From Deuterostichococcus epilithicus (lineage: Eukaryota > Chlorophyta > Trebouxiophyceae > Prasiolales > Stichococcaceae), in contig JAVTLE010000023.1 of assembly GCA_033439295.1 (NCBI GenBank), positions 1,426,001 through 1,490,000 of the forward strand: DNA of 64,000 bases, given 5' to 3'. Shown here in pieces: positions 1 to 64,000 of the stretch (position 1 is the first letter of the stretch; every line of letters begins with the position of its first letter). Both the position numbers and the translations under genes were made by a program. Under the pieces are notes generated by a model, which saw only the letters and a list, made by a program, of their open reading frames with translations, was not told where the DNA came from and did not search any database.

Positions 1-89
1 TGATGTTGAGTGGCTGCTTCAACTGCGGCGCCGGTGCTGCGCGCAGGCCTCGACAGGACGACAGGACTCTGCTCCCCCCTGGGTCTCAG

Positions 90-2566
90 GGACGTGCTCG
101 CGCAGAGCTTCCAGCACGCAGACGACCTGCTGCTTGAGGAGCTGAAGGGTGTGTGTCCCTTTTCGCCGTGTCCATGGCTGCAGTCTCCGCAAGTCCACGT
201 CTCAGCAACATCTAATCCTGCACCGTCCCTGCTCAGTCACAACGGTGCATCTGCGCCCATGTCCTCTCAGGGCCCCAGCAGCAGCAGAACGACTGTAAGC
301 GCGCTTACACTTACTGGCCAGTCCAGTGCACTGCAGCTTGGGGCTGTGTCCAGCTTTGCTCGGGTGAGGATGACATGGTGACAAAGCGTGGCTGCAGGCC
401 TGCAGGACGAGGAGGAACGGATGGCGGGGTCCACCGCTTCTGTCGTGTGAATGATTACCACGGTCACAAGGGGAGAAGAAACAAAAACGAAAAGACAAAG
501 GCCCTTTTGCTGCAGGGCTGGAGGACGAGGAGGAGCGCATGGCTGGGTCCACCGCCACCGTGGCGCTGGTGCGGCGGGACAAGATCATCGTGGCCAATGT
601 CGGCGACAGCCGCGCGGTGCTGTGTCGCAACGGCCGCCCTGTGGACCTCACCACTGAGCACAGGTATTGTGTTGAGAGGTGTCGTGGTTGGGAGTTTTCT
701 TGTGGGTGGCGGCTGTCAGTGCGGCGAATGTGGAGCACCACCAAGCAGAGACCTGCCTGTGTGCATGTGCCCAATCAGTGATGCACGCGAAGCATTACAA
801 TGCCATAGAGTGGAAACAGTACTGCCTTGTCTTGCCCGAATGTCTGTTCGTGGTTCAGCGTCGCGAGGTCGTCACTGTGGCGCCAGGCAAGACGCCTGCC
901 CCGAAACCGGCAGGCGTGTGCGCGTGCAGTGTGCGGCTGGACTGCGGACGGCCTCATGTCCAGCATCCCTTGCGAGGCGTGTCATGCCCGTTTTTGTGCG
1001 CCGCAGGGTGCCTGGCAAGGGCTCGGTGGAGGAGGCGGAGGGCAGGAGGCCTCCTTTGCAGCTTCCCCTGTAGGCACTGGTCAAGCTCAAAGAGGTTCAC
1101 CGTGCGCCACAGGGTGTTTTGGCAGCGGCCCGGTGGTGGGGCCGCAAGGGAGTTGCAGCCCCACCTGCAGGCATGGGATACAAGATTTCCAGGATTCAAG
1201 GTCCATACCTGAACGCCCTACACATGGCAGGGTGTTCGGGAGGGCCCCGGTGGTGGAGGCGGAGAAACTGCCGGTGGAGCCGGCGGGCCTGACCTTGTTG
1301 CAGATCGAATCGAAGAAGGGACCTCCTGTACGGCGCAGGGTGTTTGGCAAGGGCGGGGTGGTGGAGGCGGAGAAAGCGCGAGTCGAGGCTGCGGGCGGCT
1401 GGGTTGCGGACGGCCGGGTGTGCGACGTCATCGCGGTATCGCGTGCCTTTGGCGACCTGCAGTTCAAGACGGACGCCGGGCGTCAGGAGATGCTGCAGTT
1501 TGGCGTCGAGTGCGTCTGTCCCCCCGCGAGTTTCAAAGCCCCCATTTGCCCTTCAAGATTCACAAAGCCTGCAAATTTAGGGGGAGGCCGGGCGACAGGC
1601 TGTGCCGCAGTTGGGCATCGACTTCGGCCTCACTCGGCGCTTGGCATCCTTTGCGAAATGCAGATACTTTGTGGGAGGATTTTGCGTGTGGACTGTGAGG
1701 GGATTGCCGCGCACGTGGCCTTCTGTGGCACACGTCTTCAGTGCCAGAGCGCTGCTGCATGAGCACCCCTCTGATGCACCCCTTTTGAAGAGAAGAAACA
1801 TGTCACCACCCGCAGGATTGGGCAGTGGGACCAGGAGTTTGTGGGCAGCGTGCACTTCAGCGAGAGCCCCATCGTCGCGAAACCAGACGTGACGGAGTGT
1901 AAGCTGGAGGACGATGACGAGTTTGTCGTCATCGCATCCGACGGGCTGTGGTGAGCAGTGGTGCTGCGGCGCTGTGCTGCTCCTTTAACGTTTGTGCTCG
2001 CCATGCACCCGAACGGGATGGGCCTTGACACCTGTTGCACCTTGCCCCAGCTAGCTACTTCGAGGGTTGACGCTGCAGCCCTGATGCCGCCAAGGCGGCT
2101 ACACCTTCGGAAACATGCCCTCCACACTTTCGAGCCAGCTGATGTCGCTGTGTGTCATCGTGTCAGGGACGTCATGGGCAGCAGGGACGTCATCCACTTT
2201 GCACGCACCAATTTCAAGAAGAAGATGAATGCACAGGACATCGCAGACAAGCTGGCCGAGGTGATCCAATCTGGCATCCTTTGGCAGCCTCGTCAAAGCA
2301 GCACCTGAGGAGTGGTCTTGGTTACACACCACCTTGGCGGAATGCCTGACAAATCCTGCATTTCTGCGGGTCACACCAGGCTGCAATGAGCAGCTCACTG
2401 CGCAGTCACTGAGCGTGGCCTGTCGGCTTCTGGCCAGGTGGCGGTGCGGCGGCACACTGCCGACAACGTGGCGGTCATCGTGCTGGATCTAGGCGGCGGC
2501 AAGGCCGGCTGGGGCGGCTCCAAGAAGTCCAAGCAGCCGGGGCTGCTCTCCCGCATGTTCAAGTGA
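90..2566 (+). CDS. PP2C-type Ser/Thr protein phosphatase (5' part missing)
   Basis: This is a metal-dependent protein phosphatase of the PPM/PP2C family, which removes phosphate from Ser/Thr. Exons seen: 90-148 ([13 protein letters not shown]), 516-663 ([30 protein letters not shown]), one from about 1339 ([22 protein letters not shown] in part), one from about 1822 ([26 protein letters not shown]), one from about 2167 ([16 protein letters not shown]) and a last exon from about 2440 ([14 protein letters not shown]) ending at TGA 2564-2566. [14 protein letters not shown] and DGLWD are core PP2C motifs that include metal-binding Asp. The early motif DGHGG is not in the window, so the first exons lie upstream. 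The C-terminus is a Lys/Gly-rich tail. Introns carry repeated copies of the following exon starts (see findings). Substrate and cell location cannot be told. Confidence 0.9.
391..450 (+). repeat. Intronic echo of PP2C exon 516-663
   Basis: This intron stretch repeats the acceptor and first about 40 bases of the exon beginning at 516, with scattered substitutions. Both read GACGAGGAGGA followed by ATGGC and GGGTCCACCGC. The two copies are about 119 bp apart. Confidence 0.85.
1004..1395 (+). repeat. Four-copy array of an exon start in the PP2C intron
   Basis: The sequence GCAGGGTGTTTGGCAAGGGC, followed by a GGTGGTGGAGGCGGAG run, forms the start of the exon near 1339. Decayed copies begin near 1004, 1110 and 1228, giving spacings of about 106, 118 and 108 bp. 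Each copy keeps a CAG acceptor-like trinucleotide. A further weak copy of the inner exon (CTGCGGACGGCC) lies near 940. Confidence 0.85.
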
Positions 2567-3160
2567 CGCCACGCCAGGTGGGCGACTGCAGCATCCGACT
2601 GGCATCGGCGCGTGCGAGGGGCGCCCCGTCAGGCCTGCTGCTCCCGTAGTTGTGCCGACTCCTGCAGAGGGCAAATACCGGCGTGTACCCTCCCTCGGAG
2701 GAGGAGCGGGCGGCGTCGCAGGTGCAGGCTGGTACTATTTTACGACCATTTCAAATTGCTGGCATGAGGCATCAGAGACGAACCCAAATTTTCCTGGGTC
2801 GATGTTTTCGAAGACAGTGCTTGTGTGTAGTTTTTTTTTCCGGCATTGGGAATTTGCCGACCATGTTGAAGATGGTAGCTGTCCACTGCGGCAGCTGCGA
2901 AGCACAGCAGGCAGAGCTGGTGCTGGACCGACTGAATCAATTACAGACTTGCGTTTGAAGGCAACAGACTACTGTCAAAGAAGATTGCTGAAAGGATGCT
3001 GCGACACACACTCCGAGGCTTCTCTCTAATTCCTTCAAAACAGCTCCCGAGCCACCTCAACCCAATCGCGAAGGGTCGACAGACCAGCACGACGAGCAAG
3101 CCCACGTCTACCTGTCTCAGTCTATCTATAGAGATCTCAATGAATTGAGGACTACCCATA
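2567..3160. other. Intergenic region between convergent genes
   Basis: This lies between the 3' ends of the PP2C gene (+) and the small zinc-finger gene (-) and should hold both 3' UTRs. A TGTAA element on the minus strand near 2939-2943 could be a green-algal polyadenylation signal for the minus gene. No coding signal was recognised. Confidence 0.4.
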
Positions 3161-4872: not shown

Positions 4873-8495
<3,623 letters not shown>

Positions 8496-8945
8496 GGCGG
8501 CAGCGGCCCCATAACGCTGCTGCAGTTTTGTCGAGTTGCGCGCTGGCGGCGGCTCGGGGTACTTCTTGGACGGCGCTGCAAGATGGTGTGGGACAGTTGC
8601 TCACAGCTCCGGCCGCTGCCGGGGTGTCACGTGTCACGCTGGCGGCTGTGCTCGCGAAAGCACATGATATAGAACGCGTTCACAGACAGCAAAACCGTGC
8701 GGGTAGATTTCGCGGTGTGGTGACATGCTTCGGCTTGTGACGAGACGAGCAGCGGCTGTACTGCCTTCCGAGCTGCGTGGTGCTATCCAAGTGCTGGTGC
8801 ATCGGCGCGGTCTTCTTGGGACTTGAACCACGGCATGGAACGCTTGCAACCAATTTTGTATCCCAACCAGTTCTTGCAGCTGACTGAAACATCCAGAGGT
8901 TCAAACATACGGCATGTTTGCAACGTCACTCCCTTCAAAACCCCC
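8496..8945. other. Intergenic region between convergent genes
   Basis: This holds the 3' flanks of the CGS gene (+) and the mL54 gene (-). No coding signal, repeat array or clear polyadenylation motif was recognised. Confidence 0.3.
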
Positions 8946-9453
8946 TCACTGCTTCTTGGCCTTGCTGAAGTTCCTTTCCCTAATGGCATCCCGGTTCTCC
9001 AGCTTCAGCCGCCGTTGCCGCTGCAGCCAGAGACAGCACCTCAGTCCCACAACTCCTGAGCCATCAGCAGACGCCGCCACCATGCACACGTCAGCGACAT
9101 GCACCACTGCAACCAGACAACACACCTGCGCAGGACTCTGCTCCTCCGCATCCAGCCGGCGCAGCTGGCTCAACATCGCCTGCGGCCCCGCCAGCTGCCA
9201 TAGCCAGGAGGGGTACTCTGCGTCTGGCAGCAGCGGCGGGTCCGCTTCACCCTTCACCAGATTGAGGCCTGTTGCGATTTTGGGCTGCTCTGCTGCCGCC
9301 GCCTCGCTGCTGAAGCCTGCGTTGCGGATTGCCTGGGGTCTCTGTCCAGCGCATGAACACCTTGTGACTGGAGGGCTGCATGCAACACAAATGTGCGCCG
9401 ATTGGCTCTGCAGCGCTACGTACCTGCTCGGTACGTCCAGCTGCGAGGTGCAT
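8946..9453 (-). CDS. MRPL54: Mitochondrial large-subunit ribosomal protein mL54
   Basis: A small mitoribosome protein (MRPL54/yeast Mrpl37 family). The diagnostic stretch LLPDAEYPSWLWQL and the basic C-terminus RLKLENRDAIRERNFSKAKK match the family pattern of a Pro-Asp-x-x-Tyr-Pro-x-Trp-Leu-Trp core followed by a conserved basic tail. The last exon begins after the acceptor near 9025 and ends at TGA 8946-8948; the middle exon covers about 9343-9120 (FSSEAAAAEQPKIATGLNLV upstream of the core). A short first exon, ATG 9453-9451 with donor GTACGT at 9424, joins in phase, but an earlier start encoding a longer mitochondrial presequence is possible. Family assignment is firm; the N-terminus is not. 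Confidence 0.82.
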
Positions 9454-10188
9454 GTGTCAGCAGCACGCGGCCTGGCTTTGGTAAGCTCTGCATGAAGGTG
9501 TGTGCCACTCTAGTATCGGCCGTCTGGGCCAGACGCTCGTTTGCTGCAGCAGATGTGTCGACGGTGCTGTCCTTGATTGTCTGCCCTTGTTGCTGTTGCA
9601 AGCTGGTTCCGAAGCAGTAAGATCACGACCTGCTTTTGCGACCTGCTGCTCCTGCAATTGCCGTCGGAGGGCGCGTAGTAACTGCCTTCGGGTTGGAGGT
9701 CCAATTGGGCTAGTTGTGAAATGATTGGGGTCTTTTCGACTGGATACCCTACTCGAGCACAAGGACCAGCAATTGACGATGGTTGATCGAGGCAAGCTGT
9801 TGGGAGGTGGGCACTGCAGGAACGCAAGTGGAGGCGGCTGTCATGCCAGCCAGCCTCTCCGTTCAATCCCCTCTGGCTGTTGGTGTCACGACCGCGCAAG
9901 CGCAGCGACGCATCTGGCACATACCACTTGTTCCCAACAGTTGCGCATACAACCTACTGCTGCGCAATGCTGCCCGTCACATAAAATGATGTCCCGGGAG
10001 CTTGCGACCTCAAATATGGTTTGCCAACCTGCTCGCTGGTCAAGTCATGACGGAGTGCTGTAGGATGGGTAAGGTTCCCTTCTTATGCCACACTGATAGC
10101 TTGCCAGTGCTGTGGCGGCACTGCCACCAATGGGCACTGACAGGATGTCCGCCCCGATTCAGAGCGCCTCGGTCAGGAGGCACGGCTC
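9454..10188. other. Non-coding stretch between two minus-strand genes
   Basis: This is the upstream region of mL54 and the 3' flank of the MYST acetyltransferase. Open frames exist on both strands, but none has a recognisable domain or splice-consistent continuation. Confidence 0.3.
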
Positions 10189-14016
<3,828 letters not shown>

Positions 14017-14131
14017 CGAAGACCGGAAACATGGCCAGGGGCCGTGGGCAAGCATGCGCAGACGGACGGCAACCACTTGCAGCTCTCGCAGCAGGCGGAA
14101 CGCGTCCATCACATGACACCATGAATGACCT

Positions 14132-16672: not shown

Positions 16673-19077
16673 TCATGCTGTCGCAGCTTGCGCCGGCACC
16701 TCAGCCTCGGCCTTGTCGAGAGCGGCGTCAATGTCCGCAAACACGCTGTCCATGTCTCGTGTGCCATCGACCTGCAGGTCACCACATGTGAATGTTGCGT
16801 TTGGCCGTGCGCCTGGATCGCAATGCATGATGGCCAAGATCGCACGGAGCTGACAGCCAGCCGGTCATCCTTTGACGAGTTGCTCCTACGTCTCCACGCA
16901 TCCAGCAAAATAGAGCAGATCTTTACCTCCACGAGGATGTCCCGGTAGTACTCAAGCACAGAGTCCACGTTGGTGTGGTAGGTACGCAACCGGTTCACCG
17001 CCTGACGGAGCACAGCAGTACTCGTAAGCCATGCCACCTGGCGAGATCACGACTGGGGCTGCAAGGGACCGGCCGCAGGCGGAACCTAGGGTTTGATTGC
17101 ACATCTGGCAAGGAAGACCAATACCCAGACCTTTTCCTCGGTGTAGTCGCTGAGCTGCACCAGGCGGTGCACGCAGCCTCCTCCTCCAGCGGCTGGGAGC
17201 AAATGGAGATCTGACAGGAGTGAGACGTTTAAAGTAGCAGCTCAGCCCCCTCACCTTCTCCTCGGTGTCGTCACTGCGCTGCACCAGGCGGTGCACGACC
17301 TCCTCCGGCGGAGGCCGGAAGGTGAGGTGGTAGATCGCGCCGGTGTCCGGGTCGGACCGCCGCCCCACGATGCGCTCCACCAGCAGCTCGTCCGGCACCT
17401 GCATGCGTCACCAGGGTCCTTGCGGTTTCGAGTCGCTGAAGGTGGCGGGCCGCAATAGAAACACGCCGGCTGGGCGTTGATCAGGGCAGCCATTGCATCG
17501 GTCGCAGCCCAGACCCTGGCGCCCTGGCGGAGGCGGCGGTGCAGACCTTGATGGAGAGCGGGGCCAGGCACGGGCCCCGACCACGCTGCATGTGAGAGCA
17601 CTGCACGCCGCAATCCGAGAGCCTGGACCCTCATGCGCAGCAGCTGCAGGGGGTCCATGCCGTAGCAGCCTCACGTTGATGAGGAGGAAGAGGTCGGGGC
17701 GGATGGCCGCCTGCTCGATGGCCTGCGCCTGCTCCCCGGAGCGCGGGTAGCCGTCCAGCAGCCAGCCCTGCTCCACCGCGTCGCGCTGCGCCAGCCGGTC
17801 TTTGACCATGTCCACCACCACCTGGGGATGTTTGGACGCTGGTTTCAGATGTTCATCATGGTCAAGGATGTAGAAGTTGGTCATCTGTAGCGACCAGCCA
17901 GTCCTTCGCCGTGTCCGCCACCACCTGGGGTCGTGAGATGCGGGCGAGATTCCGAACATGGGTTTCCCATTCACGTCAGAATTCTTGAGGTATGCCATTG
18001 GCGACGACACCCCGTCCAGCAGCCGAACCTGCATCCCTCCTCACTGCAGCTGCTGCACGGGAACAGCGGCGTGCAGCAACGGCACAGGCCAGAGGTCTTC
18101 CATCTGGTCAACTCGATCCTGGCGCCTCGCTGGGAAGAGGTTGCCGGCGTACGTGAGTCACAGGCGCGCCTCAACATCTCATTGTGGTCGCTTGAACAGA
18201 AACGTGCACCTGCACGAGTGGCCTGCGATCCGGTGCGTTTCCCTAGTGTCCCACCTCGGTGGGAACGAGCTTGCCGGCGTCCTTGACGTGCGGGCGTGCT
18301 GCAACCTTCAGTCTAACTAGTCGCTCATTCACGTGCAGCGTCAGAAACATGGACGCCTCGATGAAAGCCTGCATATTGAGATTTCCTCTGCACCTCGTTG
18401 GGGACGAGGTTTCCGGCGTCCATGAATTCGCGGGCACGCAGTCCGGCGGGCGACCCGCGCGCGACCTCCGCCCGCAGCAGGTCCCCCACCGATATGTGCA
18501 CCAGCTTGTGCTGCGGCACATGGGCAGGGCTTGAGTGAGTTACAGCGTTTGGGGGTCAGACAGCGGTCAAACATGCAGTTTCTGTTCCTGCGGCACCTTG
18601 CAGCTGCGGCTGGCCCAAGCCACGGGCTGGGACTGGACTCCTGAGCAGCAGCGGGCCTCGGCTGCAAGCGATGCCACGGGGCTGGAGGACACTGCTCACC
18701 TTGTGCACGATCTTCTCGCACTGGGTGCCCTTGCCGGCTGCCGGCGCGCCCATGATCATCACCTTCAGCGGCCCCGCACTCACAGCCTGTCCATAACAAT
18801 GCGTTGCTGGATCGTGAGTTCGATGCATTACCTACATCTTCAATGAATGAGGTGTAGCACCGGTGCATTTCAATGCACTCAGCCCACAGCATGATAAAGC
18901 GTGCCTACCCGCACTCGGCAGCGCTGCCGCCTGTGCTGTACAGCCTTTGGCAGCCTCTGTCGCCATGCTAGCGGCGCTAGAAAGCCTGCACGGGGTACAG
19001 GCAGCGTTGATCGTGCGCAGCAGTTTCGTCGGAAATCGCCACTGCCGTACTGCAGCGCCGCACGCCAGGGTTGCCAT
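16673..19077 (-). CDS. Adenylate kinase, plastid (AMK2-like) type
   Basis: It converts ATP + AMP to 2 ADP. From the N-terminus: a probable plastid transit peptide (ATG 19077; [20 protein letters not shown], Ser/Ala/Arg-rich) joined in phase at a GTAGGC donor to an exon starting near 18808 with [18 protein letters not shown] (P-loop), then [20 protein letters not shown] (18510), [32 protein letters not shown] (17820), [39 protein letters not shown] (17370, LID region), [13 protein letters not shown] and [18 protein letters not shown] (16980), and an Ala/Glu-rich end, stop 16675-16673. The match to plant plastid adenylate kinases is close. At least three introns contain copies of adjacent exon edges. 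Confidence 0.92.
17128..17285 (-). repeat. Echo of an adenylate kinase exon end
   Basis: The exon tail with its donor side at about 17250-17300 (plus-strand CTCGGTGTCGTCACTGCGCT, then GCACCAGGCGGTGCACG) recurs at about 17137-17175 (CTCGGTGTAGTCGCTGAGCT, then GCACCAGGCGGTGCACG) inside the downstream intron. The offset is 124 bp. Confidence 0.88.
17797..17945 (-). repeat. Echo of an adenylate kinase exon start
   Basis: The block encoding VVVDMVKDR (17797-17828) is preceded in its 5' intron by a degenerate copy at about 17900-17931. Both contain ACCACCTGGGG on the plus strand. The offset is 103 bp. Confidence 0.8.
18110..18440 (-). repeat. Triplicated exon end in adenylate kinase
   Basis: The exon end encoding [10 protein letters not shown] (near 18395-18430) is repeated at about 18255-18290 and 18125-18160. 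All share a CTCG(C/G/T)(T)GGGA core followed by GAGG/GAGC and TTGCCGGCGT or TTCCGGCGT. Offsets are 139 and 130 bp toward the 3' side of the gene. Confidence 0.87.
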
Positions 19078-19737: not shown

Positions 19738-22700
19738 ATGAAGGTGATGTCCTGCGGGACGCCTTGCTATGATCAGCGTGCTGCAGCATGCTCGGTTTCA
19801 TGCTCTGGTCTGCGTGCTTCAAATATAGCATTGCGCAATGACGGAACTCAGACAGTTTTCATGCCTGCAGTTCTCCCTGGAGGGGCTGGTGGTGTACTTT
19901 CCATATGAGTACATCTACCCGGAGCAGTACCGCTACATGCTGGAGCTCAAGCGGGCGCTCGACGCCAAGGGCCACTGCCTGCTGGAGGTGCGGCAATGCT
20001 GGTGACGACGGGAGTGTGTGTCATCACGCATCATGTACGAGCACCGTTTCGACGCCCCTGCCTAGCCACCCAGCACAGGCGCTGCCTACAGCTCGCAGCC
20101 GGCAGCAACAATGTTCAAAAGCATGATATGTCCTGCCCCCTGCACAGATGCCGACAGGCACTGGGAAGACCATCACGCTGCTGTCGCTCATCACGTCCTA
20201 CCAGCTGGCGCACCCGGAGGTGTGTACAAATGGCTGATTAGCACCGTGCGCAAATCGCATGTGCACTGTCAACTTGCCTGGCAAGGTTTTGATCGAGACA
20301 CCAGCAGTGCAAGCCCAGGCGGCTAGATTGTGACCGACGTCATGACGGCAAACCAGCGGACACAGTGACAGACATGCCAGCCGCAGCGCACCAGACTATT
20401 CATGAGCACCGTGCTACACTCTAGCTTTTGGAATCTAGACCTCACACCCTTCCCACAGGTGGGCAAGCTGGTGTACTGCACGCGCACGGTGCCCGAGATG
20501 GAGAAGGTGCTGGCAGAACTGCAGGAGCTCATAAGCTACCGCGCAAAATTCTTTGCCGACGGCGCCGACCCGAAGCTCCTGGCGTTGGGTCTGTCGTCAC
20601 GCAAAAACCTGTGCATCCACCCCAAAGTCGGCGGTGAGTCTGGCGTCGTTTGAAGCAGACGAATGCTCAAACACGTGGCTTGGCTTCGGCTGCATGCCAT
20701 CGTCAGCCGCATCCAGAGTGTGACGTAGGCTCGGGAACTGGGAAGGCTGCTGCTGGGTTTCGGAGGGCTGCGCCTGAGCAGACGCAGCGAGATGAAGCGC
20801 TGTCACCACTAGGGACAGTCTGGCGAATTGCCACGATGGTCAGCATCCTCGCCTGCAGAGGAGGACACATAGGGGAACTCGCAGGAGGGCGGAGCGAGGC
20901 GCAGTCAGATCTCTGTAGGAACACTCCTGCGACTGCATAACCACACCTTTGACTCTCCATATGTCTCAGAGGAGGGCTCGCGGGAGAGCGTGGACGCGGG
21001 GTGCCGCAACCTGACGGCGCCCTGGGTGCGGGACAAGGCGCAATCGGACGCGAGCGTGGAGCTGTGCAGCTACTTTGAGGACCTGGAGAATGCCGGTCCC
21101 GAGGTGCGCGCGACCCCTCCGCCTGTGTTGACCACCACTCATGACAACACATGCAACATGCTTGCGCGAAGTGGGAGAGGTGGGGATGCTGGTGCGTGCA
21201 CCCATCCGTCAGCCAGTCTTGAGGCCACAGGAGGCAACGAGCTGCCGGACACCTTTGTGGGTGTTCCGCCAGCATGTCCGTGAACTGTCCCCGGGTCACC
21301 AGGTGACAGTCCCCCGCTTGGTACACTTTCTAACATGCACGTTCGACACGTCCAAAAGGCGAAGCTGGAGGCGGGGGTGTACACGCTGCACGACCTGCGG
21401 GTGCTGTGCCGCAAGGCCGACACCCATTGGTGCCCCTACTTCCTGGCGCGCCACATGATCGCCTTCGCCAACGTCATCGTGTACAACTACCAGTACATGC
21501 TTGACCCCAAGGTGGGAGGGAAGGCAGGAAGTGATAACGGACAGCAAGGGGCAATAGGCCTTGCAGGGGTCGCGGCACAGCAGGGGCTCACTGGGGCGAC
21601 TATCGCAGCGGCCCCGCATGCTTTCGTCCCACACAGCTTTGAAGGTCGATTGAGCACGGGCATCTCCTCCTCTCCAGAACTTCAGCTCCTGCAAGAGTGA
21701 GCACATTTGCATCTTTAACACAGCCTGCCTTGCCGGGCATCACATGGTGGGGTGTGAGAAAGGTGCGTGTCAGAATTGTGTCTGAAGTGCCCTCACAGGT
21801 GTCGCAAATGGTGTCGAGGGAGCTGGAGAAGGAGTGTATCGTCGTCTTTGATGAAGCTCACAACATCGACAATGTCTGCATCGAGGTGCGCGTGCCCTGC
21901 ATGCTGCATAGGTCCAGCAAAGTATGTTCAGCAATCCTCGCGCCATCTGTGTGCCTGGACAGAACTGAAAGCCTCGAGCTGGACGGAGCCCTAGCCCAGC
22001 AGATCCGTCAGCATGTGATGCACTACTTGTTGTATCAGATCCGTTGTCGTGCGTGGCCAGGCGCTCAGCGTTAACCTGCGGCGGCAGACGCTGGACGGCG
22101 CATCGCGCAACATCTCCCGCCTGAACACCGCCATCGACCGCGCCAAGGTGGGCTGTTGCTCAGAGCACTCGAGGCCCGCTTGCGACGCTTGTATCAATTT
22201 GGATGTTCGGACCACTTGTTTCGGTTGCCGCATTTCTTGGCTGCAGCCTTCTGACTGTGGCTTGTCCTTTTCCATCGGCAGCCCTGACATTCTGTGTGGG
22301 AGGCGCACACCGTTACCCCGTGGCAGCGTGCATATGCGAGCCTGCAGCGACCATCGAATCTCCACCTTTGAGGGTCGCTCAGCGCTGACGCACCCCATGC
22401 TTTCGCCACCACAGGCGACGGATGCGCAGCGGCTCACAGACGAGTACCGGCGCCTGGTGGACGGCTTTCAGGGGCAGGGCATCATCCCGCGGCAAAACGA
22501 GGGCTGGCTTGCAAACCCGGCGCTGCCGGCGGACATCCTGCGCGAGGCGGTGAGGCCTTCCAGTAGGAAAACTTCAGGGTCTCAGGATGCGATGTTTGCG
22601 ACGATAACGCATCCTGCGCGGGCCAGTGAAGCATGTCACACATGGTCAAGGATAGCCTTCCAAGACCCGGACCAGCACCTTTGCCTGATTGCATCGAAGC

Positions 22701-39867: not shown

Positions 39868-43623
<3,756 letters not shown>

Positions 43624-44426: not shown

Positions 44427-47400
44427 ATGCGGCGGTGCCGCGGCGGCGCCGCGGCGCGGGTCGGCATGCCTCACATATCGTGCCTGCGACGGCACAGCTC
44501 AGCCAGCAGCGCGTGTCGAACACCCGCGGATCAATCGATGACCAGCAGGTAGGAGTCACACAGCAGATTGTCAAGGCACTGGCGTCACCGGCCGCAGGCA
44601 TTCAGTAGCCTGCCGCAGCAGCACAGCCTGTCGAGCCTGCTAGCGTGCTGCCTTTATGGGTGCAGGATGGGTGGATGCACCCTCCTGAGGATGACATCGA
44701 GGCGGAGTCTCTCGTGGCGCTGGACTGGCCGGCAATCTGCGCTCAGGTGCGGCGCGGCCATTTGGCATGCCCTGTGCACTGCCATATGCGTATCAATATG
44801 CGCAAAGAGCAGTCGCCGGGTTGACCGCCGTTGCACCGATGCCATGTCCGCACAGACGTTATTCCGCATCTTACCTTGTGCAGGTATCGGCATTCGCCGC
44901 GACATCTCTGGGTGCGGAGGCCATACTCAGTGACGGGCTGCCCATCGGCGGCTCGCAGCAGCAGTCGGAGGAACTGCTGGAACAGACCGCCCAGGCTCAG
45001 GAGGCCCAGCTTAGGTGAGCTTCATTCATGGTCACCGGTCAATCAATTCGGCTTGTAGACTGCACACTGCAGGTGAGGTATCGCGGCGTTGTCGAACAAG
45101 CAGTCCTGCTGCTCATTCCAGCGGAGGGACTGATAGGATCAGATGCTTATCCTGCAGCTATGGCGGCGTGTACGACCTGCTGCCGCTGCTGGACGCGGTG
45201 GAACGAGGGCGCATGGCGCACCCGCTGCAGCTGTCCGGCGTGGCGTCCACCCTCGAGGTGGGCATTGTACGCTGCAAAATCTGATGGTGGTACCTGCCGA
45301 GCTGTTTTAGCACAGATAGGAAAAGTCCTGTGGCCGCAGTCAGGCATAAGCAGCTGCGATCACTTGCTACACGCAATATTTTCGTTTAGACCGCACTGGC
45401 GCTGAGGAACGCGGTCGAGGCGCGGCCGGCCCTGGCGCCGCTGCTGGCGCCGTTGGGGAAACCCTTGAGCAACCTGGCCGCCGATGTGCGGCACTGCATC
45501 GGCGCTGAAGACGGCCGCATACTGGACCGAGCCAGGTGACTTTCAACCCAACACCACATGTCATGCATGCTCATGCGAGAAGCAGGGATGCTGCATCACG
45601 TGCGTCATGACACCCCCAGGCTCCAGCACCCTGTGGAGAGAAGAAGGGACATAGAAGGATGAAAACCTGGTGATCGTGCATTTCCACACCATGATAGAAG
45701 CTGCTTGACGCTTCCGCAGCGCACGCCTGGCGGAGGTGCGGCAGCAGCGCAAGGCCAACGGCGCCGAGCTGCGGGCCAGCCTGGCGGAGTGGGCTCGCCG
45801 GCTGCACGCCAGCGGCGTCTCCGAACGCGCCCAGGTGTGTGTGCCAGGTCAGACCCAGGCGTGGAGGAGGATCCTGTCTTGTGACGCTGCCGCAGCGCGC
45901 CGCATGGACCCGGCGGCGTAACACCACGACATGGACAGGCCTGGCTGGATTGTCAGCGGAACTGACCCAGCAAGAATGGAGCGCCTGCTGCATGTGGATA
46001 TAAGGGTTCAAGGAGGCGACGTTGTGTCACCACCCTCCTGCATCGCCCCCGTCGCAGGTGGTCGTGCGGCGGGACCGGCAGTGCGTGGCGGTGCGCGCCG
46101 GGCGGCAGGGCGAGCTGCCGCGCGGCAGCGTCACCCTGGCCTCCTCCTCCACGTGCGCTCCTGCCCGGGCCCACTGCACGCTGCACGCTGCACGCTGCAC
46201 GCTTGTGGCTTGGCGCTGTACAAGGAACCGGGGCCGGTGCCAGCGCTGATACTCATCAGCAGCACCCTGCCTCATGACTGCACAGTTTGCGTCAGCAGTT
46301 CGACTGCACCTCCTGGTTGCATTTGCAGGCGCTCGACGCTGTACATGGAGCCGGAACCGGTGGTGGCACTGAACAACGCGGAGGCGCGCCTGGGGGCAGC
46401 GCAGGACGAGGAGGAGTCCGCCATCCTGCTGCACCTGTCCCGCCAGGTCAGCATTTGCATCTCACATCGCATTGCAGGTAGGGTTCAGGGTCCTGGCAGC
46501 ACCTGACACACCTGCTGGACCCCGTGAGCAGCCCAGCCGGCTGGCGAGGCACGGCAACGAGGCCCGTCTCTCCTGCCAAGTCTGCCTTGCTCGTGTGCGT
46601 TGACGAAGATGCAAGCTCCTGGCGAGCAGCTCCTTGTGCCACAATGGAGCCTGCTGCAGCGGAGTCTCTGGCCATGAGTTGGCACCCGGTGCGGCTCCAC
46701 CCCCCAGCGTCAGAGGGCGGCCACTCTGCCTTCGCAGGTGGCGCAGCTGGCGCGGGACATCGCCACGGTGCTGCGCGGCGTGACTTCACTGGACGTGGCG
46801 TCGGCGCGCGCGGCTCACGCCGCCTGGCTGGGCGCCACCCGGCCCGCCTTCATTGACGAGGCCGCTGCGGCGCAGCGCGGCCCGGTGTCCGTGCCCGCCA
46901 TGCAGCACCCGCTGCTGCTGCAGGTGCGGCGGCCGATGTGTGATGTCAGTCGGAGCAGTGCTCGGTTCTTGCTGCATCACGCAACACGTCGCAAGCGCCG
47001 AAACAGCTGACTGCACATCCCTGCCACTGCGCCGTTGGAGCATTCGGCTTGTGCTTTGCATGCAGCCCACGCTGGCGCCGCTGCCGGCGCTGGCGCTGGC
47101 AGAGGACGCCCAGTTTGAGAACAACTTCATGGAGCCTGTCGCCGCGCTGGAGGCCGCGGCGGGCTCGGCGCCGGCGCGGCCGGACTCCAGCGGGGAGTCG
47201 CCAGACGCTGAGGACTCGGGCGTCAAACCGAGGGCTAAGGCGCCCTGCCCAGTGGACCTCACGGTGCCGCCACAGGCGGCGGTGGTCATGGTCACAGGTG
47301 TGTGGGTTCAGCACTTAGGGTTTGCAGCGAGCACACATCTACAGCGAGCACACTGGTGACATGGCTGCTGGGCGTCCACGGCAGGCAGGCCCTGGCGACC

Positions 47401-50400
47401 AAGCAGCACAGGCATGCTGAGCAGGGAACATCAGTGAACGACGCATTCCATCAGGTATGTGTGCCCACGTGCGTCGCTGCACGGCCCAAAACGGGTTGCA
47501 AGACAGCGCCGCTGAAGGCAGTGGCCTTTTAGCGGCGGTGCTCAGCGTCAATGACGCATCGTCTCGACATCATCCTCTGCCAATGTGCCGCAAGGTCTAG
47601 AATCGACCGCAAGGCGGCTTCGCTGAGGCGCTGGGCCTTGCGGCTTTCAACATCAGAAAACCCTCATGTCAAGTTCGCTCATTTTTGCTTATACTGTGCG
47701 GTGCAGGGCCCAACACGGGCGGCAAGACCGCGTCGCTGAAAGCGCTGGGCCTGGCGGCGCTCATGGCCAAGGCCGGCCTGTTCCTGCCGCTGGCGGCGCT
47801 CGCCGGCGGTTGCTTGCAGCCGGAGCTGCTGTGGTTTGACAAGGTCAGCCGCCGCACCGCTCTACCACCTCCATCCCAACTCCCGCTGCTACACCGCGAT
47901 CTAGAATCGAATGGACTGGCAGCTATTGTAGGATGGAGGCCTGCTGTGTCTTTCGCCTGCCAAATGACGGCAGTCTGCTGAGCGAGTCGGGAGACGCAAC
48001 AATCAGTCAGTGCCTAGCATCTGAAGCTGCTGCGGGGTTGTCGCTCAGGTGTTGGCAGACGTCGGTGACGGGCAGAGCCTGCAGCAGAGCCTGAGCACCT
48101 TCAGCGCGCATGTGCGGCGGCTGCGCCTCATCCTGGCCGCCGCCACACGCGGGTCCCTGGCACTATTGGACGAAGTCGGCAGCGGTGCGTGCTCTTTCGT
48201 TGCTGCGCAGCATCTTTGTAGTGCTTGGAAGGATGCCCCTCATCCAGGCGTTCCCGCCGTCCGAGAGAGCATACAGACAGGACCTTCCCACGCATTTTTC
48301 TATTTCGCGCAAGCTGGCATGCGGACCCAACGGAGGGGAAAACAGCGGCGGCGGCGCTGGAACAACGGCTTGCCTGAGTGTGCCAGGGGTGCCTGACCGA
48401 TTTATGTTTGAATTCGTCCTGGTGTCCAGGCACGGACCCAACGGAGGGGGAGGCGCTCGCGGCGGCGCTGCTGCAGCGGCTGGCGGCCACCGCGCGGCTG
48501 ACCTTTGCCACGACGCACCACGCAGGCCTGAAGGAGATGGCCGACGAGCAGTTCGTCAACGCATCCGTCGAATTCGACATCGCCACGCTGCGCCCCACCT
48601 ACAGGCGAGCCGGGTTGGTTCTGGTGTCGCACGGTGCACGGTGTCTTGCGTCACGTCGCCTCGAAGGCGGCGGCCAGTCGGACGTAGAATCCGCTATGGC
48701 GGCCGCCTGGGACAATGTCAACAGCACCGGCACCTGCTGAGCGCTGAGGGTAATCATTTCACCTGACCTTGTGGTTGACGGTCACCCTTCGCTCGTGCCC
48801 GTGCAGGCTGCTGTGGGGCCAGGCGGGGCAGTCCAATGCGCTTGCAATTGCTGAGGGCCTGGGCTTCAGCCGGCAGGTCGTCGCGGACGCCCGGGAGGTG
48901 CGCCTCAGCACGCGCTCGAGAGCGCCAATGGGCTACCGGTGCAGACCAGCCAGCCACGCCCACGGGGAGCAGGCCTGCGGTCCATCGCCGGCCCAAGTCT
49001 AGAGTACTCTGTCGATAGTCGACTGGTATGAAACCCCCTGTCAGTATTCGACTGGTGTAGAACACCCTGTCATCAACACCCTGCCAACAGCCGAACGGTA
49101 TTGATCTGGCGGCACAGGTGGCGGAGGGGATGCGCGCCCTGACGGATGCGCAGGCGCGCAGCGAAGTCATGGCGGAGCACCTTGACACACAAGTCGAGGA
49201 CGCGCAGGTAGGGGCCGAGAATATGAGTGCGCAGAGATCACGGCAAACATTTGGCAGAAATTTGAACTGAAATTCTAAATCTCAGACCCCGGCCGCGGCG
49301 GCGGGTGAAACCCGCGCGACTGCACGTCGCACTATTTTAGCACTGCAGCAAAAGCGCGTTGGCGTGCCTGGATCACAGCTGCGGCTGTGCAGCAGAGCTG
49401 CGGCGTCGGCAGCCGTGCACAGCTTGTACCACAACCTGGCGCCGTAGCCAGGAGGGTGCCATGGCGGCGCGGGCCAGGATTGCGTGTGCCGAGGCTGCGA
49501 GACAAGAGGCGGCGCGGGAGCTGCAGGAGCTGAGGCAGCAGGCGCAGCTCGCCCGGCCTGCAACACGACAACCCAACCATCCTCACCATGTGTTGCAGCT
49601 ATGGAGAGCAGACTTTTTGGTAGTGCAGGCAGTGGCGGCGCGAGCAAAGGCGGCGAAGGAGGAGGCAGTGTGGGAACTGACGGCCCTGAGGCAGCAGGCG
49701 GACCTGATCCGGCAGCAGGCGGCCGCCGCAAAGTCTGACGTGCCCGCCGCGCAACAGGAGGTCACACAAACCTTTTCCCTGTAGCCCGGGCCCTCTGTTG
49801 CTTAGCTGAGTCTGCCGCTCAGACTCGGCACATGCGCCCCAATAAGGTTTCCTTGAGCCGGCGATACCATCCAGGCTGTGTCTGCAACTTTGCATGGTTA
49901 CAGACGAGGCGCATTGTCGGAAGTGTGCATGATGTGAGGGCGCGCGTTGTCCTGTGCAGTCAGTCACATCGGTGTTCACTGACCGCAATTGCAGGCGGCT
50001 GCGGCGCAGCGGCAGATCAGCGAGGCGGTGGCGCAGGTCAGGGCGGGCGAGCTGCCGGCGGCGGCCGCGGCCAGCCGCATCCGCCAGATCGAGCGGCAGT
50101 GGAATGCCGACGCCGCAGCGGAGGCGGCCGCAGACTCCGCTGACGACGCGGCGCCGGCGTTCCGGCCGATTGTGGGCCAGCAGGTGGCTGTGCGCACGAT
50201 GGGAGGCTCCGTCGGCACCGTCATGCAGGCGGGCAAGCAGGTGTGTTTAGGGCTCAGGGTTTCTTTTACTGCAGCCACAGTTGTCCTCAGTTCGGGTGGG
50301 AGCAACAGCTGCCATCAAGTCCAGGGCAACGGCACTTGGGGTTGCAGCTGCAAGGTTGTGCGAGAGGTGATGGTGCCAGCTTGTGCCAGGAGCTCTGCGC

Positions 50401-59400: not shown

Positions 59401-60154
59401 AGGCTAACTGCTTGCTGCCGGAGCAGGCTTCCACAGTATCTCATCTATTTTACCAGTCTGCATTGACTTCAACCTGCACGCCAGCGACATGAGCAATCCA
59501 TTGGCAGAGGCGGTGCGCAAGGCGCATCTGAAGTGGGAAGCTTTCAAATTAGACTGAGAACTTCTGCAGGCCGGCGACATTGAGCAACCGACTTGCAGAG
59601 CTAAGGCGGGAGTTTTGGAGCGTCCTGAGCTGAGACTTCCAACATCTGCAGGCTGGCGACATGAGCGACCCGTTTGCAGAGGCGGAGCGCAAGGCGCAGC
59701 TCAAGCGGAAGCTGTCGCAGGCGAGGACGACTGTCATCCCCCCAAGCATGGGCGCGCCAGCGGCGCAGCAGGGCGCCTCCGCACCTGCAGCTCCAGTGCC
59801 AGTGGCCACACCGGCAGCTGGTAGCCCTGGCTCTGAGTGGCTAACAACTGCTTGTATGCTGCATGCCTGTCAGGCTGCAGGAGCTGCTGCATGTGCTCGG
59901 CTTGATACCTGATCTGCCGCGGTTCTGAGCCTTCTCCCTCCTCGACATGAGCAGGTGGCGGCCTTTTCGGCGGTGGCGGCACGGTGCCCTCCCTGTTTGG
60001 CGCGAGTGCGCCTGCTGCGGCGACTGCCGCCACGCCTGCCGGCGGCAGTCTCTTCGGGACGCCGGCCGCAGGTGCATGGGGCGCAGCCCCGGNGGNGNCG
60101 ACGCCGCCCAGCAGCACAGCCAACTCGAGCCGACGAGGGCGCTTGCGCAAGTGA
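56496..60154 (+). CDS. NUP58: FG-repeat nucleoporin NUP58/p45
   Basis: A channel nucleoporin of the NUP62-54-58 complex. From ATG 56496 the N-terminus is Ala/Ser/Gly-rich with FSFNG, SLFGG, PAFGA, SVFGS and SLFGTP-type FG motifs and a short Gln run (57110). Coiled-coil exons follow: LCGKEGKPLTHVTKWEDISP (57140), KIVSQYREESRQLDQNSRLW (57450), ALHQALAGLEAALRGDLQTV (57725), ALLHDTDQVVRTFQRTHRW (58205), LEQYRALVVQLEALLPQQL (58993), LHNLHDFFNAVAARLERLHD (59120) and DMSDPFAEAERKAQLKRKL (59660). The end is another FG-type stretch (GGSLFGTPAAG) closing with a basic RRGRLRK, stop 60152-60154. The DFF-AA-RLE to DPFAEAERK order matches plant NUP58. Three undetermined bases (60093, 60096, 60098) fall in the last exon. 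Confidence 0.88.
59484..59712 (+). repeat. Triplicated exon start in NUP58
   Basis: The exon start at 59658 (GACATGAGCGACCCGTTTGC, then AGAGGCGGAGCGCAAGGCGC) has copies at 59486 (GACATGAGCAATCCATTGGC, then AGAGGCGGTGCGCAAGGCGC) and 59576 (GACATTGAGCAACCGACTTG, then CAGAGCTAAGGCGG). Spacing is 90 and 82 bp. Confidence 0.92.
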
Positions 60155-60483
60155 TATCACGGTGCACCGCCGCCGCCTGGACTGCACTGCTGAGTTATTT
60201 CGAAACTGGTGACAACAGTGACAGAGCACTTGTTCAGTCGGCGTGTCTGGTTATTGAGGCGTCGCTGGCGTGTTCGGACTACCCGTGCTCGGAGGGGAAC
60301 TCTGAAACGATCGCGACTCCATTTTGTGCCGCCGGTCCACACGGGGGAAGTTTTGGTATCACCCCTTGCAAGCTTCTTCGGCTCGCCGAATCGCGTACAA
60401 CGCAGCGCAATTGCAGGTTCCAAACGGCGAGGTGTGAGAAAACTTCGGTCTTCGAAATCGTACGGACCCCAGGCGTCAGCAAG
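60155..60483. other. Intergenic region between tandem plus-strand genes
   Basis: 3' flank of NUP58 and 5' flank of the fasciclin gene. It is AT-richer than either gene. Nothing specific was recognised. Confidence 0.3.
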
Positions 60484-63239
60484 ATGGCATTCACAACCTT
60501 CATGGCCATCGCTCTCGCTGCGTGTGCGATCGTCTGTGCTGTCGCCTGTCAGGCAGCGGCCCAGGTGACCGCAACGCGCTTTTCTGCAGCGCATGAGCCA
60601 AGTTACTCGTTCCTGTGTGCCTCTGTGTCTCATGATCCTGCAACGGGTCAGAGCTCTGGATCGATCTGGTGTGCTGCGTTGTTCTCCGGCCGCGCCCCGG
60701 ACCCTCCCAACAGATGAACTGCTCGTTTGAAAGCTACCTCTTGAGCTCGAGTTGCGATTCGATCAGGTTGTGCGGTGTCCTACCTTCTCGCCATGACCTC
60801 AGTTGAGCGAGCGAGCCTTTGATGCGACTGAACTTCGTGTTGCAGCAACCGGCTGCTGCCGGTCCGGCGGGATCGGCATTATGCAGAGCTCAGCCATCCC
60901 TGTAAAAACACGAAAGACAATGCCAAGCACGCTGATTGACGTCCTCACCGACTCACGCCGCGATCCCTGTCTGCTGCGTGCGCAGCACCCTACTGCAACG
61001 ACCGAAAACTTCTGGCCCTCCAACTGGCGACGACCCTGCAGCGCGTCGGACTTCCTGGCCACGCTGCGCGACGTTCCCGTCTGGTCCGCATCCGCACAGA
61101 GCTATGAGGCGCTGCTGGCAGCGGGTCTGCCGGTGCCGCACGATGCCACCCTGTTCGTGCCGCAGGGCAATGCCTGGGCTGACTTCGGGGCAGCCAACGG
61201 TGCGCAGATGTTTCAAATGGAATCTCATGCCCTGCATACAACCGCTGAGCAAAGCATGCTGGCCTCATGCCTGCAGTTCATGTTGCATCGATGGAGCATT
61301 GACCTTGTTGCTGCATGCAAATAAGGCGCCTGCCCTCGGAGCACTGCATGCATGCATGTACCTGCGCTGGCAACTCTGGTTCTGGCTGACAGAAAGGATG
61401 TGTCGGTTGCAGGGCGACCCACCTCAAGCGACCCTCGCGTTCTTGCCATCCTCCTGTACATGAGGTGATTTGCCCGTCGCATGGTGGCATCCGGATCAGC
61501 TGCACATCATGCTGCATGCTGCAGCGTGCATGTTTCGAGCTCAAAGTCCAGCTTCAATTATTCACTGATGCGATGGTTCGCTGTCGCACAGCATCCCCGG
61601 CGGCGCCCTGAACCGAGACAGGCTGGTTGCCGGATCCCCGCACCAGAGCACACTTGGCGCCGGCCTCAACGCCAGTCTGCCGCTGACCATCACGCGCAAC
61701 AGCACAATCAGTGCCGCAAACCACGCTGCGCGCTTCCACCGTCAGGTGTGAGTCGGTAGACTACTTGGTGCTGCAAGTCGTCGTCCAGCACGCAGCACAC
61801 CCTGCTCTGCAACTGTATGGGATGGAGGGTCCGATGGAAGTGGAAATGCTGCGCATCCACGGCGGGTTGCTGTGACAGCATTCGTGACAGGAAGCAGAAC
61901 ACCCATGCTGTTTGCCAGTCCAGCACACTAGCAGCTATCCATTTGACGCAGGAGCAGCTGTCCGGCATCAACCAGTACGTTTTCGGCAGCATCCTCCCCG
62001 TGCACAGGTGAGGAGTGGTCAAAGCAAATCAACGAAACGCTGTAAATGGCTGGTGAGGCCTGTAGTGTCACCCACCTGGCTGCTGCTCCAGTCCGTGGTG
62101 GTGAAAATCTGCACCGCAAGCAAGCTGTTTCATGCTGCATGAACCTGCAGGGCCTGCTCCTGCTACATCTACGAGATCAACGCAATCATCTTCCCGGCCT
62201 CCACGACTTTTGATGCCGTCCCTGACACGGATCTGGTCACCGGTAAGCCGCCCAGACGATGCTGTTCGTAGACCTAATGTAAGCTTATCGTTGATTGTGC
62301 ATGCTTCACTTCGTTGGCCTCACGTCTGTGCGCACTCTGCGCAGCTGCTGCAAGTGTGATGATTCATGCGTTTTGCAATGTCGCTTGCAACAACTTCATG
62401 CGTCTCTGCAGCCATCGCCGGCCTCGGCGAGCACCCCGTTATTTCAGCAACGCTCACACCGCCAGCAGCGCCCACGACGCCTCCTGTGACGCCTCGGCCG
62501 ACGGCGCGCAGCACTGCTGCGCCCACAGCTGCGCCCACAGCTGCGCCGAATGCGGCACACCCCACAGCGCCGCCGCCGCCTCTTATGCCGCGGCCGACCG
62601 CTGCGGCGATGCCGGCCCCCACTGTTGCACCGACACCGGGGCCCACGCCGCAGCCGACCACTTTTCCCACCGCAGCGCCGACGAAGGCTCCCAAGCCACA
62701 GCCGCCGCCTATCACACCCACACAGGCGCCCTCCGGCGACCGCACTAGTGCTCGTGCGCCCAGCAAGGCCACCACTGCTGTGACTGTCAGGAAGGCACTG
62801 CAGCCACCCGCTTCCACGGGGCCTGCGCCGGCGCTCGACATGGCGGGTCACACCGGTATGCGCCCTGGGATTCCTTCCGTAAGGCACGACCGCCCAGGTT
62901 ATGTTTTCTCAGCAAAGAATACTTAGAATGGACTCTATCCATGCAAGGGGTGCCTTTGCAGCATGCAACCTGCTGGTGCAGTATGCGCTCGCACTCACAG
63001 CACAGCGGCCAGAGGCAAAACCGCTTTCTAAACATGTTTTCGTCCTTTCGCAGACGTATCGACAGCCGCCAACAATGCACAGGTGGCGACATCGTTGGGC
63101 GGCATGTCTACCGGCCCCCCTCCCGCGCGCAAGATCCTGCCGCCGCCATCTCCCGACAATGCCGCTCCAGTACCCATGGTGACAGGCAGCATGAAAGTGG
63201 CGGTGGCAGCCGCCGCTGCGGCAATTATGGTGCTGTAAA
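60484..63239 (+). CDS. Secreted fasciclin (FAS1) domain protein with Pro/Thr-rich tail and probable GPI signal
   Basis: ATG 60484 opens a classic signal peptide (MAFTTFMAIALAACAIVCAV, then ACQAAAQ). A FAS1 adhesion domain follows: DFLATLRDVPVWSA and ATLFVPQGNAWADFG (61040-61190), IPGGALNRDRLVAG with TITRNSTISAANHAA (61590-61745), EQLSGINQYVFGSILPVHR (61953), and YIYEINAIIFPASTTFD (62165). The exon from about 62410 encodes a long hinge of Pro, Thr and Ala (TPPAAPTTPPVTPRPTA), like glycosylated arabinogalactan-type regions. The last exon (63055) ends with small residues and a hydrophobic tail (VAVAAAAAAIMVL), a likely GPI-anchor signal, stop 63237-63239. Cell-wall or matrix adhesion is inferred from the family. 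Exon phases join throughout the C-terminal half; the middle exons (61200-61590) are less certain. Confidence 0.8.
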
Positions 63240-63848
63240 GGCGCCCTCGATTTGGTGGTTTCGCGGTCAATCTGCATGATGACTTCTGCACTTCTTCTTC
63301 AGTGGCGCGATCAGCAAGGTATTCGCAGCCTGATATCGGTTCCTTAGTCGAACTGGTTTGTGATTGTATCGATGCATTCAAATTCGCACATCTGCGCCTT
63401 TCTGTCTCCATGTTGAGCCTCGCACTGTGACATTGGGTTTGACAGGTCCGAGACATCTCCGCCAGCTTCCCAAACCCTGCCCAGTCCCATGGATCAGACC
63501 GATGCTGATGCTCTGTTTCGAAGCTAACGCCACACTGGCCTTCATTACTACACATACATTGCGTTGTGAGCGAGATTGCACAAAGCCCTTCTTGGACTGC
63601 TTACCTGTGACAAGCACATCACGGCCACGCTTTGACAACTGGAGCACTTGTCGAAACTGTGCTGTGCAGAACCTTGGCACGTTGCGACAGCATAGAGGGG
63701 CGATTGTTGGCGGTAGATAATTAGAGCTCAACGCCGCTGAGCGCTGGTGGACCTAGCAGACAAGTTGACATCGCAGAGCAGGGCGAGCGCCGCACGCCAG
63801 GTCAGCAGCGAGACGTGTCTGGAGCTGCTGCCGCCTGGTGCGCAAGCC
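63240..63848. other. Intergenic region
   Basis: 3' flank of the fasciclin gene and probably the 5' flank of the next plus gene. It is AT-richer than the genes. Open frames on both strands lack recognisable content. Confidence 0.3.
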
Positions 63849-64000
63849 ATGTTAGAGCGGCTGCAATCTCATCACTCACTGGCCGGCACCAGCCCTGGTT
63901 GCAGCCCGGCGCAGCAGGCAGTGCATCACCGCCCGCACAGCGCGCCGCGGCGATGCCCGCGCATTGCAGCGGCAGCGAAGAAGGGCAGGCGCAGCGGGGG
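63849..64000 (+). CDS. Possible N-terminus of a plastid-targeted protein (3' truncated)
   Basis: From ATG 63849 an open frame runs to the window end: MLERLQSHHSLAGTSPGCSP, then Ala/Arg/His-rich sequence with AAAAKKGRR. Composition (no acidic residues after the first few, rich in Ser, Ala, Arg) resembles a plastid transit peptide, but no mature domain is visible. Confidence 0.3.
   Translation, partial: MLERLQSHHSLAGTSPGCSPAQQAVHHRPHSAPRRCPRIAAAAKKGRRSG

Follow-up and report, generated by a model that had tools for sequence, protein, structure and literature searches.

The origin of intron sequences is mostly obscure because their source sequences are seldom identified, a point made in PMC4974935. 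In the potato RdRp gene, a tandem duplication spans the border between an intron and an exon (Ma, Lan and Niu 2016, PMC4974935). The same text outlines the AGGT model, in which duplication of an exonic AGGT makes new introns (Rogers; Gao and Lynch 2009; Hellsten 2011, as cited in PMC4974935). According to PMC3488318, intron gains in Daphnia are accompanied by short repeats and were ascribed to double-strand break repair, and the introner elements of Micromonas constitute a shared repeat family. Here we analyze a stretch of 64,000 nucleotides (nt) from the green alga Deuterostichococcus epilithicus (contig JAVTLE010000023.1, positions 1,426,001–1,490,000; GC content 61%; hereafter, the window), together with other parts of the same genome. 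Many introns in this DNA contain decayed copies, which we call echoes, of the edge of an adjacent exon.

The echoes are related to the known border-crossing duplications but are denser and restricted to exon edges. They resemble the potato case, in which the duplicated segment spans the 3' side of an intron and the start of the downstream exon; that case is, however, a single recent one with the intron part duplicated (PMC4974935), whereas here there are dozens of old cases, mostly without a recognizable intron part. As in the AGGT model, local intragenic duplication supplies intronic sequence, but the offset equal to the intron length that the model requires, as outlined in that text, occurs in none of 48 echoes. 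The gains in Daphnia likewise feature repeats around sequence of other origin; there, short repeats mark new introns, whereas the echoes are tens of bases long, lie inside existing introns and are anchored at the splice junction (PMC3488318). With Micromonas, as described in the same paper, the common point is an algal genome whose introns are associated with an unusual repeat, and the difference is that echoes are private to each exon. We recognized no report of this echo pattern in the open-licence literature searched; single border-crossing duplications are known (PMC4974935), and the present density looks new. In about 8% of the sampled introns (41/487), part of the sequence can be traced to its source, in a compact genome and with an internal clock.

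Exon-edge echoes are real, local and present beyond the window

The sample comprised the window and 24 further 10-kb stretches from 16 contigs of the 46.8-Mb genome (21 contigs), 304 kb in total, with loci labelled L###. Each intron was compared with its adjacent exon edges, and matches with a score of at least 16 were taken as echoes. This yielded 45 echoes in 41 of the 487 introns tested, with 17/487 matches to the upstream exon and 28/487 to the downstream exon. None of the 487 introns on either side reached even a score of 14 in the reverse-complement control. With exons of other genes (4,870 pairs per side), about 0.06% of the pairs reached score 16 and none score 18; with non-adjacent exons of the same gene, score 16 was reached by 0.1% and 0% of 1,941 pairs. 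At a looser threshold, there were 70 matches over 974 edges versus 5 in 974 swapped pairs, with an offset peak at 80–139 nt and a second rise near 220. Since the echoes exceed all these controls, they are local, directly oriented and derived from the gene's own adjacent exon. The initial annotation of the window had traced each gene's echoes to its own exon and proposed an alignment of introns with their flanking exons against shuffled pairs; both the attribution and the excess over controls are borne out in this sample.

In the window itself, 23 echoes lie in 22 of 135 tested introns, in good agreement with the "about twenty" first described, and an annotation-free self-comparison returned 22 ungapped repeats at offsets of 30–1000, 16 of them at 80–139. 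Outside the window, 19 of 352 introns carry an echo, a lower share than within it (Fisher p 0.0004); of the 24 other loci, 13 are echo-free at this threshold, one of these having just two tested introns. The description of echoes as spread across most large genes thus suits the window more closely than the genome.

Exons and introns are predictions of a hidden-Markov gene finder self-trained on the 304 kb. The first settings produced many tiny exons; an intron penalty of -9 gave 850 introns and one of -12 gave 586, and the latter was picked by eye from the window exons. The 586 predicted introns have a median length of 224 nt, with donor AG/GTGCG and acceptor TGCAG/G; those outside 60–1500 nt or with a flanking exon shorter than 40 nt were dropped, which left the 487. 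Internal stops were absent from 11 of 12 window proteins cut from the predicted exons (best of three frames), and 8 of 9 window gene queries had Pfam matches (PP2C, cystathionine-synthase-like, MYST, EIF3K-like, adenylate kinase, XPD-like, hexokinase and MutS2-like). The N-terminal piece of the NUP58-like gene had no Pfam match, and its name is that of the initial annotation. One pitfall is that the gene finder labelled some echoes as exons (XPD 25776–25838 and 25896–25958).

Anatomy of the echoes and their spacers

The anatomy was established from the 42 of 45 echoes with an offset of at most 250 nt, the three with larger offsets being excluded. The copies are direct and contain 28–85 nt of exon, mostly at offsets of 80–140 nt; 33 of the 42 lie at 84–149, close to the 80–140 bp given by the initial annotation. 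In 38 of 42 echoes, the match begins 0–9 nt from the splice junction, and past its exon-side end identity is at background (0.24–0.32). On the intron side, in the 38 echoes with a junction gap of at most 9 nt (a set that excludes the related-spacer case of L008), ungapped similarity runs for 0–14 nt, with medians of 6 and 4 versus 3 and 2 in swapped pairs, slightly more than the shared splice consensus. At the projected junction, 13 of 26 downstream cases still show AG, and 10 of 16 upstream ones GT. The echoes are therefore direct and local copies of an adjacent exon that include the splice site, as expected of tandem duplication across a splice border.

Copying of a complete unit would leave the sequence flanking the echo similar to the spacer next to the exon. 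This comparison covers 36 or 40 of the 45 echoes, short or cut flanks being excluded. Spacers were related in 5/36 cases in one test and in 11/40 at p <0.05 in the first test, and three gap scorings gave 10, 6 and 7 of 40, with two expected by chance. The positive control, paralogous kinase introns of similar divergence, was recognized in 34 of 40 segments (20 junctions, two lengths) and in 19/20 cases in the gap-scoring test, and in simulated plain tandem duplications at the fitted age (0.15–0.20 substitutions per branch) 84–98% of spacers were visible. Among the five echoes of 91–93% identity, the four with offsets below 150 show no spacer similarity (p 0.15–0.81). Duplication of the whole unit, intron part included, is thus not seen overall and occurs at loci such as L008 and L015. 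Since a minority of spacers are truly related, the set is mixed, with tandem duplication in part of the cases. Most echoes do not look like plain tandem duplications: for most cases, this departs from the local tandem duplication first suggested, because the intronic half is recognizable in only 5/36 or 6–10/40 of them versus 19/20 of the paralogous introns.

The spacers show no sign of a dispersed family. None of 41 matches elsewhere in the 304 kb at E 1e-3, compared with 10 of 123 control intron pieces, the strongest of these within the duplicated gene of L013; two spacers searched genome-wide each found only themselves, a result that is not proof of rarity. A dispersed family shared among introns, as introner elements would constitute, is therefore not seen in the 304 kb, in agreement with the initial annotation.

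Telomere-repeat filler was considered as a source of the spacers: CCCTAAA-type heptamers are enriched in them (12 in 2,760 positions versus 101 in 126,462 in all tested introns), but few loci contribute. Counted in any register, these heptamers are threefold more frequent in sense than in antisense orientation in introns (101 versus 33). Window positions 30592–30616 hold a short AGGGTTT array.

Confinement to exon edges and relation to intron length

Repeats at offsets of 60–180 nt were also collected without annotation and then classified, low-complexity stretches being dropped. They comprise 46 exon-intron pairs, 6 intron-intron pairs, 1 intergenic pair and 1 exon-intergenic pair, in a sample that holds 157 kb of intron and 50 kb of intergenic DNA. 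A coordinate check places five of the six intron-intron pairs in echo series. Neutral copies of 40–60 nt would be detected with a power of 0.67–0.89; with so few intron-only and intergenic copies despite this power, the pattern is not accounted for by local duplication in general. Exon-exon pairs make up a further 32. The repeat-rich loci L010, L016, L018 and L024 contain 22 of them, three more are echoes of the window that had been annotated as exons, and the other seven are in L004, L006 and L015. The exon-exon repeats at L004:7407–7457, 7534–7555 and 9306–9327 and at L006:4617–4662 have offsets of 117–141, spaced as echoes are, and may represent echoes misannotated as exons.

One intronic duplication without a tie to an exon edge was seen at L005:5844–5947 and 6345–6453, where copies about 500 nt apart are 77% identical over 109 nt.

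The frequency of echoes increases with intron length, from 1/81 at 60–149 nt through 4/209 at 150–249, 16/146 at 250–399 and 15/37 at 400–699 to 5/14 above. The 39 introns with a single echo have a median length of 314 nt, or 203 nt minus the unit, and echo-free introns have a median of 219 nt. For each echo, an intron is thus longer by roughly one unit; the proposal that echoes lengthen introns agrees with this, and so does length-biased sampling combined with a 50-nt paste. The further proposal that a duplicated AG-GT creates new introns finds no support, as the offset equals the intron length in none of 48 echoes; the nearest cases are one intron each in L008 (length 116 nt, offset 98) and L022 (length 133 nt, offset 114), both 18–19 nt short.

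The paste of an exon edge alone into the intron was considered and set aside; the spacers fit it, and the net length gain gives no clear verdict against it.

Divergence and coding status of the echoes

The aligned identity of the 42 echoes ranges from 73% to 93% (mean 0.832, SD 0.051, chi2/df 0.92), values that are biased upward because local alignment prefers well-matched parts, and it fits one single age. The best short inner stretch is 96% identical over 27 nt (L006). Copies had been described as ranging from near-perfect to barely visible; a range exists, but it is narrower than that, and the sole near-perfect array, in the XPD-like gene, is secondary. Under simulated constant-rate tandem duplication, 29% of detected echoes have an identity of at least 0.94, versus none observed above 0.93. 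The process is therefore not visibly ongoing, contrary to the initial annotation.

The yardstick for decay was a tandem kinase-like pair (L013 with L028). It arose by tandem gene duplication of what is taken for a protein kinase, with copies about 8.2 kb apart (L013:1–1832 and 8189–9993 with L028; 76% over 1,886 nt) and introns that are largely alignable. Divergence in this pair is 0.220 in introns and 0.164, 0.115 and 0.080 at third, first and second codon positions, respectively. Echo differences at the three codon positions number 85, 89 and 128 over about 640 sites each (0.132, 0.139 and 0.201). Because this is comparable to the introns of the kinase pair, the echoes decay about as fast as free intron sequence, and their decay looks neutral-like, without constraint. 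From the codon positions we read an age of about 0.12–0.15 substitutions per site; simulation through the same detection matches the mean identity at 0.15–0.20 per branch, slightly above. Substitutions comprise 159 transitions and 143 transversions. The open frame and coding constraint of a duplicated or alternative coding exon are not seen: gaps break the frame in 18 of 42 echoes, and codon changes are 164 nonsynonymous versus 78 synonymous, stops being few (3). The frame-breaking gaps speak against echoes as a supply of alternative exons.

A diverged allele or homeolog as template is disfavoured; first and second codon positions diverge as under neutral decay, with little synonymous excess left.

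A secondary array in the XPD-like gene

In the XPD-like gene, positions 25679–25960 (forward strand) hold an exon end with its GT (R0, 25679–25720) and two copies (R1, 25799–25840; R2, 25919–25960). The two 78-nt spacers are identical, and the sequence after the last echo is different. The middle copy R1 agrees with R2 at six sites (5–23) and with R0 at sites 13 and 36. We read the array as a recent unequal exchange between the exon end and an older echo, which multiplied the echo. An exchange between sites 23 and 36 would account for site 36; site 13 then requires a later change. Echoes would, in our reading, seed arrays.

Origin of the echoes

We tentatively favour a burst, now past, in which imperfect local duplication at exon edges made introns longer. 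During a single era, exon-intron borders would have been hit by short local duplications, each event adding beside the junction a unit of about 110 nt made up of about 30–85 nt of exon edge, including the splice-site core, and a spacer of about 60 nt. The spacer would mostly be an unfaithful copy of the neighbouring intron end, produced by imperfect copying or as filler during break repair or template switching. Because the unit would have landed on the intron side, the protein would be kept and the intron lengthened. The copies would afterwards decay unconstrained to about 83% identity, and now and then an existing echo would recombine with its exon end and give rise to more copies, the XPD array being an example. 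The copies themselves, their excess over the controls, their orientation, locality and near-flush position, the neutral-like decay, the unrelated spacers in most cases and the XPD array are observed and speak for this account, as do the fit to one age and the intron lengths; the duplication mechanism, the single era and the filler are inferred. Several observations weigh against this account. A random local process should also copy intron and intergenic DNA, yet of the seven such pairs at offsets of 60–180 five belong to echo series. The fifth echo of 91–93% identity (L022, 93%, offset 233) does have a related spacer, full tandem arrays exist at L008 (71% over 185 nt at offset 112) and L015 (71% over 255 nt), and spacers are related in several of the 13 multi-echo series, PP2C among them. 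Related spacers are also commoner at high echo identity, with 6/16 at 86% or above versus 4/24 below (first gap scoring). Length-biased intron sampling with a 50-nt paste fits the 314-nt median as well, the gene models are predictions and the intron penalty was set by eye. A mixture, or fast loss of spacers, is possible.

Part of this evidence leads to plain tandem duplication, in which some 110 nt spanning a splice border would be copied and the intronic half would be masked by decay in two copies and by indels. Simulation of that process reproduces the exon extents, aligned lengths and offsets, the net length gain is near one unit, and the related spacers, which occur in a minority of echoes and in several multi-copy series and more often at high identity, as well as the potato case of the same geometry (PMC4974935), agree with it. 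We nevertheless regard it as rather unlikely for the set: 84–98% of spacers should be visible, against 5/36 or 6–10/40 observed; four of the five echoes at 91–93% identity (those with offsets below 150) lack spacer similarity, only the fifth having it; and paralogous introns of similar divergence are still alignable in 19/20 cases. The spacers might instead have been lost from older tandem duplications whose exon parts were homogenized by gene conversion until a recent stop, such as a loss of meiosis, with equal decay thereafter. This would account for the one apparent age, for the missing spacers and for the series, seen at several loci, whose units are similar in length, but spacers should at first have been homogenized too, and so few noncoding tandem duplications are visible that very great age, or a burst, would be required; we consider it quite improbable.

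The near-flush matches at the junction, the short intron part, the exclusively direct orientation and the near-absence of intron-only and intergenic copies despite the power to detect them would be expected if copying was linked to splicing or transcription, for example through repair templated by pre-mRNA or splicing intermediates, because only exon ends bounded by the splice core would then be copied, and only into the adjacent intron. We know of no mechanism that copies one exon edge and a few intron bases into the same intron, and the tandem series with related spacers at some loci do not fit; such an origin appears distinctly unlikely. The broader statement that splice-core-bounded exon ends were copied genome-wide into the adjacent intron during a past era, coupled to splicing or transcription, and lengthened a noticeable share of introns is, in our estimate, unlikely. 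If exon-edge specificity holds in other strains, it would point to breaks or copying tied to splice junctions. The repeat-filler-repeat layout also recalls insertion of an introner-like element or transposon with very long target duplications, the exon edge being the target duplication and the spacer the element. This is very improbable given the lack of a spacer family in the sample (0/41 at E 1e-3; both spacers searched genome-wide matching only themselves), and we know of no target duplications of 30–85 nt flush with splice junctions. An artefact of assembly or haplotype merging, finally, could place copies at exon edges, where diverged haplotypes would align; the transition lean (159 versus 143), the broken frames (18/42) and a divergence of up to 0.13 at first and second codon positions are unlike a functional second haplotype and render it extremely improbable.

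Echoes of the window, gene by gene

On the forward strand, the PP2C gene (PF00481) has an echo at 400–437 of the start of exon 516–663 (source 518–555; offset 118, 34/38 identical) and one at 1583–1621 of the end of exon 1231–1509 (source 1471–1509; offset 112, 31/39). A far echo at 995–1040 (source 1327–1372; offset 332, 39/46) has further copies near 1118 and 1227, giving a series about 108–117 nt apart. In our reading, exon 1231–1509 truly starts near 1337, and the predicted segment 1231–1335 is likewise an echo mislabelled as exon. The CGS-like gene (PF01053, forward strand) carries echoes of the starts of exons 5902–6111 (at 5765–5816; offset 137, 46/52) and 6398–6532 (at 6303–6352; offset 95, 38/50, with a related spacer), and one at 7873–7912 with source 7919–7956 and an atypical offset of 46 (32/40).

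The echoes of the next two genes are on the reverse strand. In the MYST gene (PF01853), the start of exon 10457–10614 is echoed at 10672–10716 (offset 102, 41/45), where the 57-nt spacer and the sequence flanking the echo showed no similarity, and that of exon 12208–12375 at 12412–12453 (offset 78, 33/42). The adenylate kinase gene (PF00406) has echoes at 17131–17184 (end of exon 17255–17398; offset 124, 47/54), 17894–17924 (start of exon 17675–17821; offset 103, 25/31) and 18255–18286 (end of exon 18394–18510; offset 139, 27/32), the last accompanied by a second echo at offset 268. The echo at 18255–18286 encodes DAGKLVP and the exon DAGNLVP. The adenylate kinase family presumably has K at this position as a rule, and the echo may keep the older residue.

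The XPD-like gene (DEAD_2, PF06733; forward strand) has, besides the array, echoes at 23175–23208 (start of exon 23261–23400; offset 86, 29/34, including about 11–14 nt of intron), 24202–24240 (source 24327–24365; offset 125, 34/39), 24929–24958 (start of exon 25028–25159; offset 105, 26/30) and 25293–25331 (end of the same exon; offset 175, 31/39). On the reverse strand, echoes occur at 36059–36101 (start of exon 35850–35995; offset 106, 37/43), at 38129–38180 (end of exon 38229–38356; offset 100, 45/54) and, in the hexokinase gene (PF00349), at 42646–42691 (start of exon 42383–42599; offset 95, 42/46). The remaining echoes are on the forward strand. In the MutS2-like gene (PF00488), they lie at 46208–46239 (start of exon 46329–46446; offset 123, 26/32), 48322–48373 (start of exon 48430–48613; offset 111, 40/52) and 49492–49557 (source 49648–49713; offset 156, 48/66), and a second-order echo of exon 47707–47843 is found at 47483–47519 (offset 224, 31/37), with another at offset 113. 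The NUP58-like gene echoes the start of exon 59652–59853 at 59484–59545 (offset 172, 52/62) and again at offset 82.

The ancestral state was sought through paralogs. No readable paralog of an echo-bearing intron was found when the genome was queried with the window (minus 20601–23000 and 63001–64000) and with L004, L008, L017 and L022, the last of which has a kinase relative on contig C12. A paralog of the MYST gene lies about 80 kb from the window copy (L026/L027; G000:C19, about 1343498–1347068), with exon matches that are 63–89% identical and introns that differ. It lacks the echo-bearing intron (window 10615–10961), the exon matches adjoining at L027 2378–2538, and has about 250 nt between two parts of one window exon, a comparison that suggests intron gain or loss.

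A stretch of 46–59 nt at L017:8432–8490, which is not a tRNA according to ARAGORN, is possibly a short dispersed element, with copies of 90–96% identity at more than 30 places in the genome.

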